In this document: piece by piece, positions 7,360 to 14,622 of the stretch
Position numbering within the stretch: position 1 is the first letter of the stretch
How the letters are laid out: each line of letters opens with the position of its first letter
NCBI GenBank assembly: GCA_015494395.1
Contig: WGBG01000123.1
Span: 1-45,172 of the forward strand
DNA length: 45,172 bases
Reading direction: 5' to 3'
Source: Deltaproteobacteria bacterium
Lineage (GTDB): Bacteria > Desulfobacterota > Dissulfuribacteria > Dissulfuribacterales > QOAL01
Notes under the pieces: generated by a model
What the model saw: only the letters and a program-made list of their open reading frames with translations
Told to the model about the DNA's origin: nothing
Database searches by the model: none
Made by a program: the position numbers and the translations under genes

Positions 7360-8193
7360 TCAGCTTTGCCTTTCCAAATTTAATTTTTTTCTTGTAAATC
7401 CGGCTATTCCAAGGAGTCCAACGCCCATTAGGACAATTGTCGCAGGTTCCGGAACAGGGGCAGTACCCTGACCCATCAGGTCGTCGTTTCCGCATTCCAT
7501 GGTGAAATGTGCGGTGAAGTCCATTTTTTCAATGCCTTCACTATCAAGTATGGGATCAAGATCAAAGCTTACAACATAGTGGTAAGCGTCACCAAGCAGC
7601 CCTTTTTCATTCACAAGTTCCTCAGATAACAGGCTAATTTCAAAGTTGCCGGTGATTCCTGTGTCTGTTCCATTGGCGTCAAGCTTCCAAGGATTGGAAT
7701 CCTGCTTGTAAGTGGTCTTTAGGAAGGTACTCTGGGCGTTTAGCTGGTAAAGTGTGTATGAACCACTTGTCCAGTCCACGTCAAAAACATAGTCATAGCC
7801 ATAAGCAGAAGCATGATTCACTCCGTCCACATCAATAAATATGTCTCCTGAAGTGTATTTGCCGTCTCCATCCCTGTCATAAATCCCAGAAGCACCGTCG
7901 TGTCCGTTCACAAAGTCCCATTCCCCTACCAGTGAAAGGTTAGTGCCGTTAAGGAACATTGCCTCAAGGTCCCAAACGTGACTTCTTGCCGTTGCAGGCT
8001 CTGTCTCTTCGTCTTCCTGCCCAATGCCTTGACCTGTGTACCAGTTTTTGCTGGTATCTTCCTGTCCGTCAAATATGGTTATGTTGGTACCCAGGGTTGC
8101 ATTTGTACCATTGAGTACTGGGTACGCCCAGGCTGTAATGCTGGTAAAGATAAACAAAAGGGTTGTGGTCAGTGTTGTAATTGTCATTTTCAT
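7360..8193 (-). CDS. PEP-CTERM sorting domain protein
   Basis: A 277-residue exported protein with a Sec signal peptide (residues 1-23, hydrophobic stretch ending AWA). The C-terminus is a tripartite PEP-CTERM signal: VPEPAT, a hydrophobic helix, then a basic RKK cluster. Such proteins are processed by an exosortase (EpsH-like) and are usually linked to extracellular polysaccharide or biofilm. The mature region is acidic, contains DGDGKYTSGD reminiscent of a calcium-binding or dockerin-like loop, and matches no enzyme I recognise. GGAG lies about 11 bases before the ATG. It is monocistronic, with a sigma-54-type promoter upstream and a strong terminator downstream. No exosortase is in the window, so it must act in trans. 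Confidence 0.92.
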   Translation of the reverse strand: MKMTITTLTTTLLFIFTSITAWAYPVLNGTNATLGTNITIFDGQEDTSKNWYTGQGIGQEDEETEPATARSHVWDLEAMFLNGTNLSLVGEWDFVNGHDGASGIYDRDGDGKYTSGDIFIDVDGVNHASAYGYDYVFDVDWTSGSYTLYQLNAQSTFLKTTYKQDSNPWKLDANGTDTGITGNFEISLLSEELVNEKGLLGDAYHYVVSFDLDPILDSEGIEKMDFTAHFTMECGNDDLMGQGTAPVPEPATIVLMGVGLLGIAGFTRKKLNLERQS

Positions 8194-8520: not shown

Positions 8521-8596
8521 GCGGGTGTAGCTCAGCTGGCAGAGTACAAGCTTCCCAAGCTTGGGGTCGCGGGTTCGATCCCCGTCGCCCGCTCCA
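8521..8596 (+). tRNA. tRNA-Gly (anticodon CCC)
   Basis: A complete cloverleaf can be drawn. Acceptor stem GCGGGTG pairs with CGCCCGC (8586-8592). The D arm GCTC/GAGT, anticodon stem CAAGC/GCTTG with loop TTCCCAA (anticodon CCC at 8554-8556) and T arm with GTTCGATC are all present. CCA is genome-encoded at 8594-8596. It reads GGG glycine codons. It stands immediately upstream of the rimP-nusA operon, the place held by metY (initiator tRNA) in Escherichia coli. Confidence 0.97.
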
Positions 8597-9399: not shown

Positions 9400-10956
9400 A
9401 TGGATGCAGATCTCAAGAGAATTATAGAACAGGTTGCCAGGGAGAAGGGGCTTGAGCCCAAGGTGCTGATAGATGCCCTGGAGGAGGCCATAAAGTCTGC
9501 AGTGCGTAAGCGTTATGGTGTCAGGCTTGAGCTTGAAGTGGCTTATAATGAAAATACCGGTGAGGTTGAGGTCTATCAGTACAGAGATGTTGTTGAGAAG
9601 GTTTCAGACCCTGAGACCGAGATTTCCCTTGAGGAAGCACTGGAGCTTGACCCTGAATCCGAGCTGGGCGACAGCATCGGGACCTTGATGGATATAAGTA
9701 ACCTCGGCAGGATTGCTGCCCAGTCAGCCCGTCAGGTCATAATACAGAAGATGAAAAATGCTGAACGCGATCTTATTTACGAAGAGTTCAAGGATCGGGA
9801 GTTCGAGCTTATAAACGGCATTGTTCAGCGTTTTGAACGCGGCGGCGTCATAGTTAATATTGGCAGGACAGAGGCATTGTTGCCTTCATCCGAGCAGATA
9901 TCCTCTGAAAGTTACCGCAGGGGAGACCGCATCCGCGCCATTATAATAGAAGTAAGAAAGGGAGTCCGTGATACCCAGGTTATTCTCTCACGCACCCATC
10001 CGCAGTTTCTGGTCAAGCTTTTTGAGCTTGAGGTGCCTGAAATAGCAGACGGGATTGTCAAGATTATGGGGGTTGCACGTGAACCCGGGAGCCGGGCCAA
10101 GATTGCGGTAAGCTCCAGCGACTCCTATGTTGATCCGGTGGGGGCATGTGTTGGCATGAGGGGTTCCAGGGTGCAGGCAGTGGTGCAGGAACTTCGAGGT
10201 GAGAAGATAGATATTATTCCGTGGAGCCCTGACCCTGCCAAGTATGTTTATAATGCCCTTGCACCTGCAGAATGCAGCCAGGTCATTGTTGACGAGGCAA
10301 ATGAATCTCTTGAAGTGGTGGTTCCTGATGACCAGCTTTCCCTTGCCATTGGCAGGCAGGGGCAGAATGTACGACTTGCAGCCAGACTCCTTGACTGGAA
10401 GATTGATGTCAAGAGTGAGACGCGATATGCCCATTATCAGGATCCCAAATATGTGGAAATGCTTAAGCTTGAGGGCATGACAGAAAATATTGCGGACAGG
10501 CTGTATAAAAACGGCATTACATCCATCATCAAACTTGCCAAGAGTGACCCGGCAGAATTGAGACATGACGTTGCTGCCCTGGTTGATACCGCAAGGGCAT
10601 ATCTTGCTGAAAAGGGTGTTGATTGGGAGACTGCCTTGGACGAAGATATTGAGGCCGAATCCCGGGATGAAGGTGTCCAGGCATCTGATGAAGAAGTTGA
10701 TGCTTCAGAAGAAAATGATGCTGAACCTGAAGAAGATGCGCAAGTTGAGCCTGTTGATTCGGATGACCAAGAGGCCATAGATGAAGAATCTTCTCCAGAT
10801 GAAGATGATGAAGAAATTTCAGGTCAAGGCCGGGTGGATGAAGAGGAGCCGGAAGAAAACGCAATTAAGAATAATGAGCAGGATGCTTCAGTCCATAGTG
10901 ATGTGGAGCAGGAAGAACTTTCTGAAAAACCGGAAACTCAGAAGGTTCCGGCTTGA
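9400..10956 (+). CDS. nusA: transcription termination/antitermination factor NusA with acidic tail
   Basis: NusA binds RNA polymerase and nascent RNA and modulates pausing, termination and antitermination. Order of domains in the 518 residues: RNAP-binding N-terminal domain (1-125), S1 (about 135-200), KH1 with GMRG, KH2 with IGRQGQNV, and one helix-hairpin-helix-like repeat ([15 protein letters not shown]). The core ends near residue 410. The last 100 or so residues are an Asp/Glu-rich low-complexity tail, unlike the short end of most NusA proteins and unlike the paired AR domains of enterobacteria. The ribosome binding site AAGGA lies 9 bases before the ATG. ylxR follows at 14 bases. Confidence 0.97.
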
Positions 10957-10970
10957 TACTCACTTGATGA

Positions 10971-11204
10971 ATGGTAGGAAAGTCCAGGCACAAGCCCATC
11001 CGTACATGCATTGTGTGCAGGCAGCAGCGATATAAAAAGCAGATGACAAGGCTATGTGTCAGCGGTGCTCTGGTGATGGTGGATGAGAAACAGACCATGC
11101 CAGGGCGGGGAGCTTATGCCTGCCCTGATAGTTCATGCCTTGAGCGTGCACTTGATAATTACAGGGGATGCCTAAACAGGGCGTTTAAGACAGGTAATTT
11201 GTAA
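10971..11204 (+). CDS. ylxR: YlxR/DUF448 RNA-binding protein
   Basis: A 77-residue basic protein of the YlxR (DUF448) family, the usual partner encoded between nusA and infB. The family signature RTCIVCRQQR, with two cysteines, is at residues 11-20, and GRGAYACPDSSCLERA follows. In Firmicutes the family member was reported to bind RNase P RNA (RnpM) and affect its activity; whether that holds here is unknown. The start ATG follows nusA by 14 bases with no strong ribosome binding site, so coupling to nusA translation is likely. A 400-base gap separates it from infB. Confidence 0.92.
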   Translation: MVGKSRHKPIRTCIVCRQQRYKKQMTRLCVSGALVMVDEKQTMPGRGAYACPDSSCLERALDNYRGCLNRAFKTGNL

Positions 11205-11236
11205 CTGCTCAGCGTACTTATGTTAATAAAGGTTGA

Positions 11237-11410
11237 TAAATGGTCTTATTTTTCCGTTCCGGTGAACAATTTCTTGTTTTTCTAAGGCTTGCTACGCCAA
11301 AATCGCGAAACTCGCTTGTCCCTCGCTCAGACAGACGCGATTTTTGTGGCTTCGCTTCGCCAAGAAAAACTACGAAATTGTTCAAAGTCACTCCAAAATA
11401 AGACCATTTA
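11237..11410. repeat. long imperfect inverted repeat element inside the nusA-infB operon
   Basis: The outer arms are a perfect 16-bp inverted repeat (TAAATGGTCTTATTTT at 11237-11252, complement at 11395-11410). Inside, GAACAATTTC pairs with 11374-11383, GTTTTTCT (11276-11283) with 11363-11370, and AAAATCGCG (11299-11307) with 11336-11344. The arms also hold GGC...GCC mini-hairpins, and the apical loop contains CTCGCTTGTCCCTCGCTCAG. The whole 174 bases can fold as one long hairpin. It encodes no protein, so it is a MITE/REP-like repeat or a structural RNA element. It must be transcribed if nusA and infB share a message. Confidence 0.85.
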
Positions 11411-11528
11411 CCACGCTGAATAGATACGGAAATTTGAAGGTGTTGGCAAATCAGTTACGGGTTTAGTACAGGCAATAAGCAGCGCGCAAATTTTGGGACA
11501 CAGATAATATATAAAAATATTCTCTTTG

Positions 11529-11570
11529 CCGGAAAGGTTTCCGGTGTGGACTGCACTGTCCCTGCAGGGA
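11529..11570. promoter_or_regulatory. two tight palindromes upstream of infB
   Basis: CCGGAAAGGTTTCCGG (11529-11544, 7-bp arms, 2-base spacer) and the perfect 12-base palindrome TCCCTGCAGGGA (11559-11570) lie 35-75 bases before the infB start. They may be RNA hairpins in the infB leader or protein-binding sites. No T-run follows, so they are not terminators. Function is not known. Confidence 0.4.
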
Positions 11571-11604
11571 TGGCGCATAATAGTTTCGGGGGTTAATTGC
11601 AGGA

Positions 11605-14600
11605 ATGGCTAAAATAAGGGTCCATGAGCTGGCCAAGGAATTTGGAATTGCCAGTAAGGAGATGGAGAGCCGTATCAAGGATATGGGCTTTCCCATTAAA
11701 AATTATATGAGCACTCTTGAAGACTATGAAGTCCAGGAGATCAGGCGAAAATTAAAGGCAGAGTTCCAGCAGGAAAAGGAAGAGAAGGAAGTCAAGGCCA
11801 AAAAGCCTGTACGACGCAGGCACAAAGTGGTGCGAATTAAGAAGGTGGTGCGCATCAAGAAAAAGGCGCCTGAATCTGAAGAGGCTGTGACGCAGGATAC
11901 AGGTGCAGAGCGTTCTGCGCCTGTTGAAGAGGACAATGCCCAGGCCGTTTCTGAAAAGCCTCAGTCTGCTGAACTGCCCCCAAAAGTATCTTCAGAACAA
12001 GAAGCACCGCCAACTGAAGAAACTGCAGAGGCATCTGCCCCCGGTGCCGAAGAGCAGGCTTCCGGTGTCGCTTCTGAGAAATCAGAAGGGGCCGAAGAGC
12101 AGGCAGTGCAGGCAGAATCCGAAGGTGCAGAATCTGAAGATTCCGGGAAGGAAAAGCAGACTGTTTCAACCAGTGTCATGGAAGAGCCTCAAGCCCGGGA
12201 AGAGACCGCTTCCGAATCACCTGAAACTGCGCCAAAGGCACAGGATGAGGTTAAAACATCAGAGCAGAGCAAGGATGAGGCATCTCCTGTTGAGGTAACA
12301 GAAGAAAAGAAGCCGGAGGCTGCGGCGTCTGATGAGGGTGCTAAAGAAGAGGCAGAAAAGATAGAGACAGCACAAAAAACTGAGAAGCCCCCTGCTTCTG
12401 AAAAGAAAAAAGAGGGTAAGGCATCAAAAAAGAAAAAGGCACCCAAACAGTATGTGAAGATTGTTGACAGGGTAAAGATTGACCTTTCCAAGACTGCAAA
12501 ACCGGCGCGTCCGGCAAAACCTGAACGGCCACGCAAGGGACCTGCTGCCAAAAAGCCGACGGCTGCTGCAAGCGCTCCGGCCACCGGTCCTGCCCCTGAT
12601 GTTGGTGGCGGCATGCCAAAGGGTGGCAAGGGCCGTAAGAAGGGCAAGCGCGTTGTTCAGGCAAGTGAGCTTGGAGGTGGAAAACGTCAGAAGAATCTTA
12701 AACAGCGCTGGGGCAAGCACAAGTCCATTGACCGCATCCTTGCGGAGGAAGATGGCGTAATCAAGGGCAAAAAGGGCGGCAAGTCCAAACAGCAGAGCCA
12801 GCCAACAGGCACAGCTCCCATCAAGGCAGAAAAACGCAAGTTTGCCATTTATGAAACTATTCAGCCTGTTGAGATGGCAAAGAAGATGGGTGTGAAGGTT
12901 GGCGATATTATCATGAAACTCATGTCACTTGGTGTCATGGTTACTGCCAACCAGTCCATTGATTATGAAACCGCTGCCCTTATTGCAGATGAATTCGGCT
13001 ATGAAATTGAAAAGAAGGCGGTTGCCGAAGACCTGATCCAGATGGAGGATAACAGGGAAGGAGGCAAGGAAGAACCAAGGCCTCCAGTCATTACGGTCAT
13101 GGGCCATGTTGACCATGGAAAGACATCACTCCTTGATGCCATACGCAGGGCAGATATAGCAGCCCGTGAGGCAGGCGGTATTACCCAGCACATTGGTGCC
13201 TATCGTGTAAAACTTAATTCGGGAAATGAGGTCGTATTCCTTGATACCCCGGGCCACGAGGCATTTACCTCCATGAGGGCTAGGGGGGCAAGTGTAACCG
13301 ATATCGTTGTGCTGGTTGTTGCCGCAGACGATGGTGTCATGGCTCAGACAAGGGAGGCAATTGACCATGCCAGGGCTGCTGATGTCCCGATTATTGTTGC
13401 AGTAAACAAGATAGATAAGCCCGGCGCCGAGCCCGACAGAGTCAAGCGTGAACTTGCAGAACTGGGGCTTGTTCCCGAGGACTGGGGCGGAGATACAATC
13501 TTTGTTAATGTTTCAGCCAAGCAGGGTACAGGAATTGATGAACTGCTTGACATGATGGTGCTCCAGGCAGAGGTGCTTGAGCTTAAGGCAGATCCTTCCA
13601 GAAGGGCAAGGGGACATGTTATCGAATCCCGCCTTGACAAGGGAAGAGGCCCTGTTGCCACACTGCTGGTGGAAGAGGGCACACTTCGTGTTGGCGAGGC
13701 AATGGTTGCAGGGCTTTATCATGGCAAGATAAGGGCAATGATGAATGACCGGGGAGAGAAGATAAAAGAGGCAGGACCTGCCACCCCTGTGGAGGTACAG
13801 GGGCTTTCCGGAGTGCCTGAGCCGGGCAGTGAGTTTGTTGTCCTTGAAGATGAGAAGAAGGCGCGTGAGGTGGCTGAATACCGTCAGCTCAAGAGCCGTG
13901 AAGCAGACCTTGTCAAGGGCACTGCTGTAAGCCTTGAGAATATGTTCAAGAAGATGGAAGAGGACAAGCTCAAGGTGCTGAATATTGTCCTTAAGGCAGA
14001 TGTTCAGGGCTCCCTTGAGGCAATTTCAGATTCTCTTAAAAAACTTGCCACTGACAAGATTCGAATAGAGATCGTTCGTGGAGGCATTGGAGCAATTACT
14101 GAATCAGACGTTCTTCTTGCAACCGCATCCAACGCCATTGTGCTTGGCTTTAATGTAAAGCCTGTTCCCCAGGCTAAGGCGCTGGCAGAACAGGAAGGCG
14201 TAGAGATTCGTTTTTATGATGTAATCTATCATGCCATTGATGAGATAAAGGCTGCAATGGTGGGCATGCTTGAGCCTGTTTATCGTGAACACGAGCTTGG
14301 ACGCGCCGAGGTGCGCGAGACATTCCATATATCACGGGTTGGAACCATTGCCGGCTGCAAGGTGACTGAGGGCGTGATAAGGCGTAATGCCGAGGCACGT
14401 CTGCTCAGGGATAATGTTGTTGTCTATAAGGGCAAGATTGCCTCGCTGAAACGTTTCAAGGACGATGCCAGGGAAGTCCAGGCAGGATATGAGTGCGGTA
14501 TTGCCTTTGACAAGTTTAATGACATCAAGGTTGGCGATGTAATTCAGGCATTTGAGATGGAAGAAGTTGCGCCTGATCTTGGCACCGCGATTTCAGACAA

Positions 14601-14622
14601 GAAGGAAAGTGATGAGGGCTGA
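11605..14622 (+). CDS. infB: translation initiation factor IF-2
   Basis: The GTPase that delivers initiator tRNA to the 30S subunit. At 1005 residues it is longer than the E. coli protein. Residues 1-52 form an IF2N domain. From about 53 to 410 there is a very long low-complexity Glu/Ala/Ser/Lys linker. A second IF2N domain lies at about 411-475. The G domain carries GHVDHGKT (500-507), [12 protein letters not shown] and a SAK motif, followed by domains II-IV. GTP-binding motifs are intact. The ATG at 11605 gives the canonical [12 protein letters not shown] opening. A GGGGG run lies about 15 bases upstream. Confidence 0.98.

Follow-up and report, generated by a model that had tools for sequence, protein, structure and literature searches.

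Why does a long near-palindrome sit in the middle of the nusA-infB operon, and does it belong to a mobile element or to the operon itself? The window is the whole 45,172-nucleotide stretch of DNA that we analysed. An earlier note had described in it a 174-bp near-palindrome at positions 11237–11410, with a perfect 16-bp outer arm (TAAATGGTCTTATTTT / AAAATAAGACCATTTA), paired blocks further in and a CTCGCT-type apex. The palindrome is present and far beyond chance, and the arm, the inner blocks and the apex can all be seen in the sequence. It also lies inside the operon as described, flanked by ylxR and infB, with rimP and nusA upstream. What had to be revised is where the element ends, as 11237 and 11410 give too small a unit. 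Comparison with other copies puts the mobile repeat unit at 11201–11427 (227 bp), and the palindrome is only its core. We ruled out the inner positions as ends because conservation extends out to GTAACTG...TAGATAC, and this is where the target duplications sit. The 227-bp element is a MITE, a gene-less non-autonomous transposon, and its parts and flanking genes are as follows.

10971–11204, plus strand: ylxR, cut short to 77 aa by the insertion (PF04296, E 1.6e-17)
11193–11200, no strand: left target-site duplication GGTAATTT, 8 bp, identical to the one copy that the sister species has at its empty site
11201–11427, plus strand: complete MITE copy, 227 bp (from repeat boundaries and target duplications in 134 copies, and the empty site in the sister species)
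11201–11215, plus strand: left terminal inverted repeat GTAACTGCTCAGCGT, 15 bp, whose TAA is the ylxR stop codon
11216–11236, no strand: asymmetric spacer from left terminal repeat to hairpin, 21 bp, with the lowest conservation of all parts (mean column identity 81%)
11237–11252, no strand: left outer hairpin arm, 16 bp, perfect
11263–11283, no strand: left inner paired blocks (GAACAATTTC, GTTTTTCT)
11299–11347, no strand: apical stem AAAATCGCG...CGCGATTTTT with the CTCGCT..CGCTCA loop region
11363–11384, no strand: right inner paired blocks (AGAAAAAC, GAAATTGTTC), with a conserved internal loop in ACTACGAAAT
11395–11410, no strand: right outer hairpin arm, pairing with 11237–11252
11413–11427, minus strand: right terminal inverted repeat ACGCTGAATAGATAC (inward reading GTATCTATTCAGCGT), 15 bp
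11428–11435, no strand: right target-site duplication GGAAATTT, matching the left one at 7/8 positions
11605–14622, plus strand: infB (translation initiation factor IF-2)

On the right side the terminal repeat starts two bases past the hairpin core. No listed open reading frame of at least 80 aa falls within the 227 bp, so the element has both the size of a MITE (less than about 600 bp) and the lack of genes. Lacking a transposase reading frame, it does not count as an IS66 element in its own right but is mobilised in the manner of one.

To decide whether the element is mobile, we looked at its copies in the host genome (G000, a draft MAG of 206 contigs, 3.2 Mb and 92% completeness) and in a second species of the same genus (G001), whose NusA is 97% identical to that of the host. 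The element is not unique: the genome search gave about 270 candidate places in the host, with 40 full copies scored among them. Allowing up to one mismatch, terminal repeats occur 382 times in the host genome, and a control pattern occurs 0 times. From these repeats we put the host copy number at about 190 or more, or about 1.3% of the genome, and the number in the sister species is similar. The copies themselves were sampled from stretches chosen by content, and a copy number extrapolated from them would be biased. The median identity of copies to the consensus is 94%, and the window copy reaches 95.6% against a consensus built from 134 full copies in the two species. The 8-bp target duplications match at 7 or 8 of 8 positions in 108 of these 134 (71 perfect, 37 nearly perfect), a match reached by less than 1% of randomly paired unrelated flanks.

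The sister species also shows us sites before insertion. Six of the 14 comparable host loci, including the one in the window, are empty there with a flank overlap of exactly 8 bp; this ratio is not an unbiased rate, as most of the sequences compared were obtained by matching to the MITE. One locus is polymorphic in the reverse direction. The earlier note had left mobility as a condition, and it is borne out by the copy number, the target duplications, the site that is exactly empty in the sister species and the occurrence in other genomes of transposases whose elements have matching ends.

At the ylxR-infB site the sister species has a single GGTAATTT, and its YlxR ends in ...TGNLKVLANQLRV* (also given as ...RAFKTGNLKVLANQLRV). 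This is nine residues longer than the YlxR of the window, which ends in ...RAFKTGNL followed by a TAA that comes from the GTAA of the element. From this difference in length, the insertion struck the last codons of ylxR, so that nine C-terminal residues were lost and the element's own GTAA end supplied the stop codon.

The repeat family has some unusual members. Very short derivatives of about 37–106 bp retain the terminal repeats (L100:707-748, L077:375-411, L173:3892-3962, L181:11797-11875 and L167:13506-13611), several of them with intact 8-bp duplications; they probably arose when the hairpin was deleted across. At L183:7577-8016 and L202:879-1314 there are larger units, of about 440 bp and flanked by perfect 8-bp duplications, in which one MITE is possibly nested in another. 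Other MITEs have the same ends around different cores, with total lengths of about 105–215 bp. At L184:425-560, L016:135 and L151:149, the terminal-repeat-like GTAACTGTTCAG adjoins CTTTGCGTTCTTGGCGTCCTTAGCGG-type repeats, and we consider these to be another repeat family with a common end motif. As for carriage by phages or plasmids, we found no match to the MITE core in viral contigs and none to a related core in plasmids. A search with a degenerate core pattern gave one match, which had no terminal repeats and which we rejected as chance.

What moves the element? A scan of the phylum with the exact 13-mer GTAACTRTTCAGC gave matches in 90 of 395 genomes, with a maximum of 398 in one and controls near zero; G353, G387, G182, G411, G375, G154, G218, G277 and others, which belong to several lineages, have it 33 to 398 times each. 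The earlier note had proposed looking for a transposase with the same ends, and one with nearly the same ends is present in another genome of the phylum (L251, from G248); none was found in the host. This autonomous IS (L251:596-2352) is 1757 bp long, with ends GTAACTATTCAGC and a target duplication AAAACGCC that matches at 8/8 positions. It has a single transposase of 471 aa (PF03050, E 1.3e-45; NF033517 for IS66, 295 bits against a cut-off of 180), which is IS66-family and ISBst12-like. A second element, of 1661 bp (L258, from G173), has ends GTAACTATTCAGCGTT and GTAACTATTCAGTGAA and an 8/8 duplication; its interior is masked and its transposase was not read. ISDge4, from the single-ORF ISBst12 group of IS66, has ends GTGACTACTCAGCA and GTAACTGCTCAGCA with an 8-bp direct repeat, and its transposition was observed experimentally (PMC12898284). 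The left end in the window matches GTAACTGCTCAGCA at 13 of 14 positions.

Given the ends and duplications of these three elements, we favour reading the window element as a MITE that an ISBst12-group (IS66-family) transposase copied in trans, by recognising GTAACTRTTCAGCG-type ends and cutting with an 8-bp stagger. We put the probability of this reading at roughly 0.9. That such a transposase moved the window copy itself we infer, as the host assembly contains no intact transposase of this kind; it may have been lost, may be unassembled, or may have acted transiently. We found no intact IS with MITE-type ends (GTAACTGTTCAGCG) in the host or the sister species, which for a draft MAG of this completeness is weak evidence of absence, and the transposase of L248 has no match in either genome. 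Lone terminal repeats in relatives were tried as a route to the parent element and had mostly unrelated flanks, and a possible IS66 relic in G002 (L305) was too degraded to use.

The genome does have an IS66 copy of its own, and we considered whether the MITE belongs instead to the classical IS66 group (tnpA-tnpB-tnpC, GTAAGCG ends) and was moved by that copy. The 8-bp duplication and the GTAA start are common to both, and the only IS66 of the host (G000:C132, L081) has tnpA, tnpB and a split tnpC, interrupted by an in-frame TAA. However, its ends GTAAGCGCTT match those of the MITE at just 4–8 of 14 positions, versus 10–13 for ISBst12-group ends. The other IS66 copies of the phylum with placeable ends mostly carry GTAAGCG, with 8-bp duplications, and the window element does not have these GTAAGCG terminal repeats. 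We consider a classical IS66 origin very unlikely.

The hairpin may instead have been domesticated as a terminator, attenuator or mRNA-processing site selected for ylxR-infB expression. It sits in a key operon and its pairs co-vary, and the predicted RNA fold is strong on both strands. On the plus strand the palindrome folds at -59.8 kcal/mol (z -7.3, with 0 of 200 shuffles as good) and on the minus strand at -70.0 kcal/mol (z -7.8 against shuffled sequence). If transcribed, it would form a strong RNA hairpin between ylxR and infB, as the earlier note had supposed. On our main reading, in which the element is a MITE, transcription of the operon would continue through it into infB, given that infB is essential and that no signal of an intrinsic terminator was found in the element. 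The nusA-infB transcript would then include a long hairpin, which could be a substrate for RNase III.

The placement of the copies tells against a domesticated role in the operon. The element is absent at ylxR-infB in the sister species, and across copies there is no orientation bias (17 same, 22 opposite). Consensus scans found no promoter or terminator in 10900–11700 and no sigma-70-like promoter for infB downstream of the element, and a search of the element against Rfam matched no family. The earlier note had called the tolerance of the insertion here notable, which was an overstatement: about two thirds of intergenic copies (39 of 57) lie between co-directional genes, close to the background of 61% of intergenic bases and no clear enrichment. 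Only 7 of 64 copies overlap a predicted open reading frame, in sampled DNA of which a simple ORF rule predicts 85% to be coding. The pattern is consistent with selection against insertions in genes and tolerance at other sites, and not with a dedicated regulatory role; we give the domesticated hairpin little chance.

A few other features of the window are worth recording. The stretch directly 5' of infB (11520–11604, CTCTTTGCCGGAAAGGTTTCCGGTGTGGACTGCACTGTCCCTGCAGGGATGG) is nearly identical in the sister species and not in G002, and is possibly an infB leader. There is a tRNA gene at 8521–8593, upstream of rimP, and a minus-strand protein at 7360–8193 ends in VPEPATIVLMGVGLLGIAGFTRKK, which resembles a PEP-CTERM sorting signal.

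The repeat could also have spread in a transposase-independent way, by REP-like (Y1 HUH transposase) or retro-mechanisms that use the hairpin as their substrate. Such an origin would fit its hairpin-rich sequence, its intergenic placement and its high copy number. Against it, exact 8-bp duplications and terminal inverted repeats, both located at the true ends, point to a DDE transposase, and REP-type elements are not known to have target duplications of this kind. We regard this origin as extremely unlikely.

We return to the MITE moved by an ISBst12-group transposase and to its hairpin core. The arms do co-vary: across the 134 copies the structure of the window copy is paired in 95% of cells, and it shows 47 double changes, where slid controls give no more than 14 and shuffled ones no more than 21. 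When run on just the alignment of the 134 copies, RNAalifold recovered only the inner pairs. MITEs from another family of the phylum (f52, in G334, G254, G387 and G353) share their type of ends with the window element and have a core homologous to its own (64–71% identity over 81–162 bp); wherever the two flanks could be compared, their 8-bp duplications are mostly exact or nearly so. In an 18-sequence alignment across these genomes, the 41 predicted pairs hold in 94% of cells, and 18 of them have changes on both sides. There are 123 double-change cells, against 48 (sd 6) in shuffled and at most 22 in slid controls; these controls somewhat favour the structure, which was itself drawn from this alignment of related sequences.

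The mismatched loops are kept as well, and at most loop positions the conserved mismatches are paired in only 0–2 of 134 copies. Given that these mismatches persist, we rejected correction of one arm by the other (template switching) as the dominant cause of the pairing. As to the RNA versus the DNA level, rare departures from pairing are equally G-U (25) and A-C (24), so they show no preference for one strand. From the alignments, selection on the structure of the element is most likely the cause of the paired core. Since the pairs co-vary and the mismatches persist across host families, the imperfect core would be kept for its benefit to the element, through the transposase, a host factor or the geometry of strand transfer. 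We are more tentative, and somewhat short of even odds, on the wider proposal that this MITE superfamily has a conserved functional nucleic-acid structure, a covarying imperfect hairpin with loops that persist between host families and that the element uses. If true, the core could serve recognition by the transposase or a host factor, or could protect host transcripts after insertion, and it would explain why genomes in several lineages of the phylum have as many as about 200 copies each.

Our literature search found no paper joining ISBst12 and MITE, and an abundant MITE group with ISBst12-type ends in Desulfobacterota-type bacteria is apparently undescribed. The locus matters for two reasons. 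It catches an insertion re-shaping a core gene, in that ylxR, within the nusA-infB operon, now stops at a codon supplied by the end of an element. The covarying core also offers a case, open to testing, of a MITE in which constraint seems to act on the interior as well as on the ends.

Among known systems, the ISBst12 group (ISDge4, PMC12898284, and ISBst12 of Bacillus stearothermophilus) is like the MITE in its ends and its 8-bp duplication. ISDge4 and the L251 element each have one transposase of about 450–470 aa, whereas the window element has none, and at 227 bp it is much shorter than the 1.66 and 1.76 kb of the IS found here. The Correia elements have a TA target and IS630-type ends, in contrast to the IS66-type ends and 8-bp duplication of the window MITE. 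Correia / NEMIS elements of Neisseria are, like ours, short inverted-repeat MITEs beside host genes, and they are reported to bind RNase III and IHF (PMC2649163). The palindromic MITEs of Candidatus Thiomargarita likewise have a high copy number and a long hairpin and interrupt host genes, but they have TATAG ends or 10-bp repeats, and their parental IS was not identified (PMC4853749). MITEPsy1 of Pseudomonas syringae differs in being 100 bp long and IS5-like, with a 4-nt duplication and few copies, but it is also gene-less, and there the transposase of the parental IS acts in trans, with movement shown experimentally (PMC3189936).
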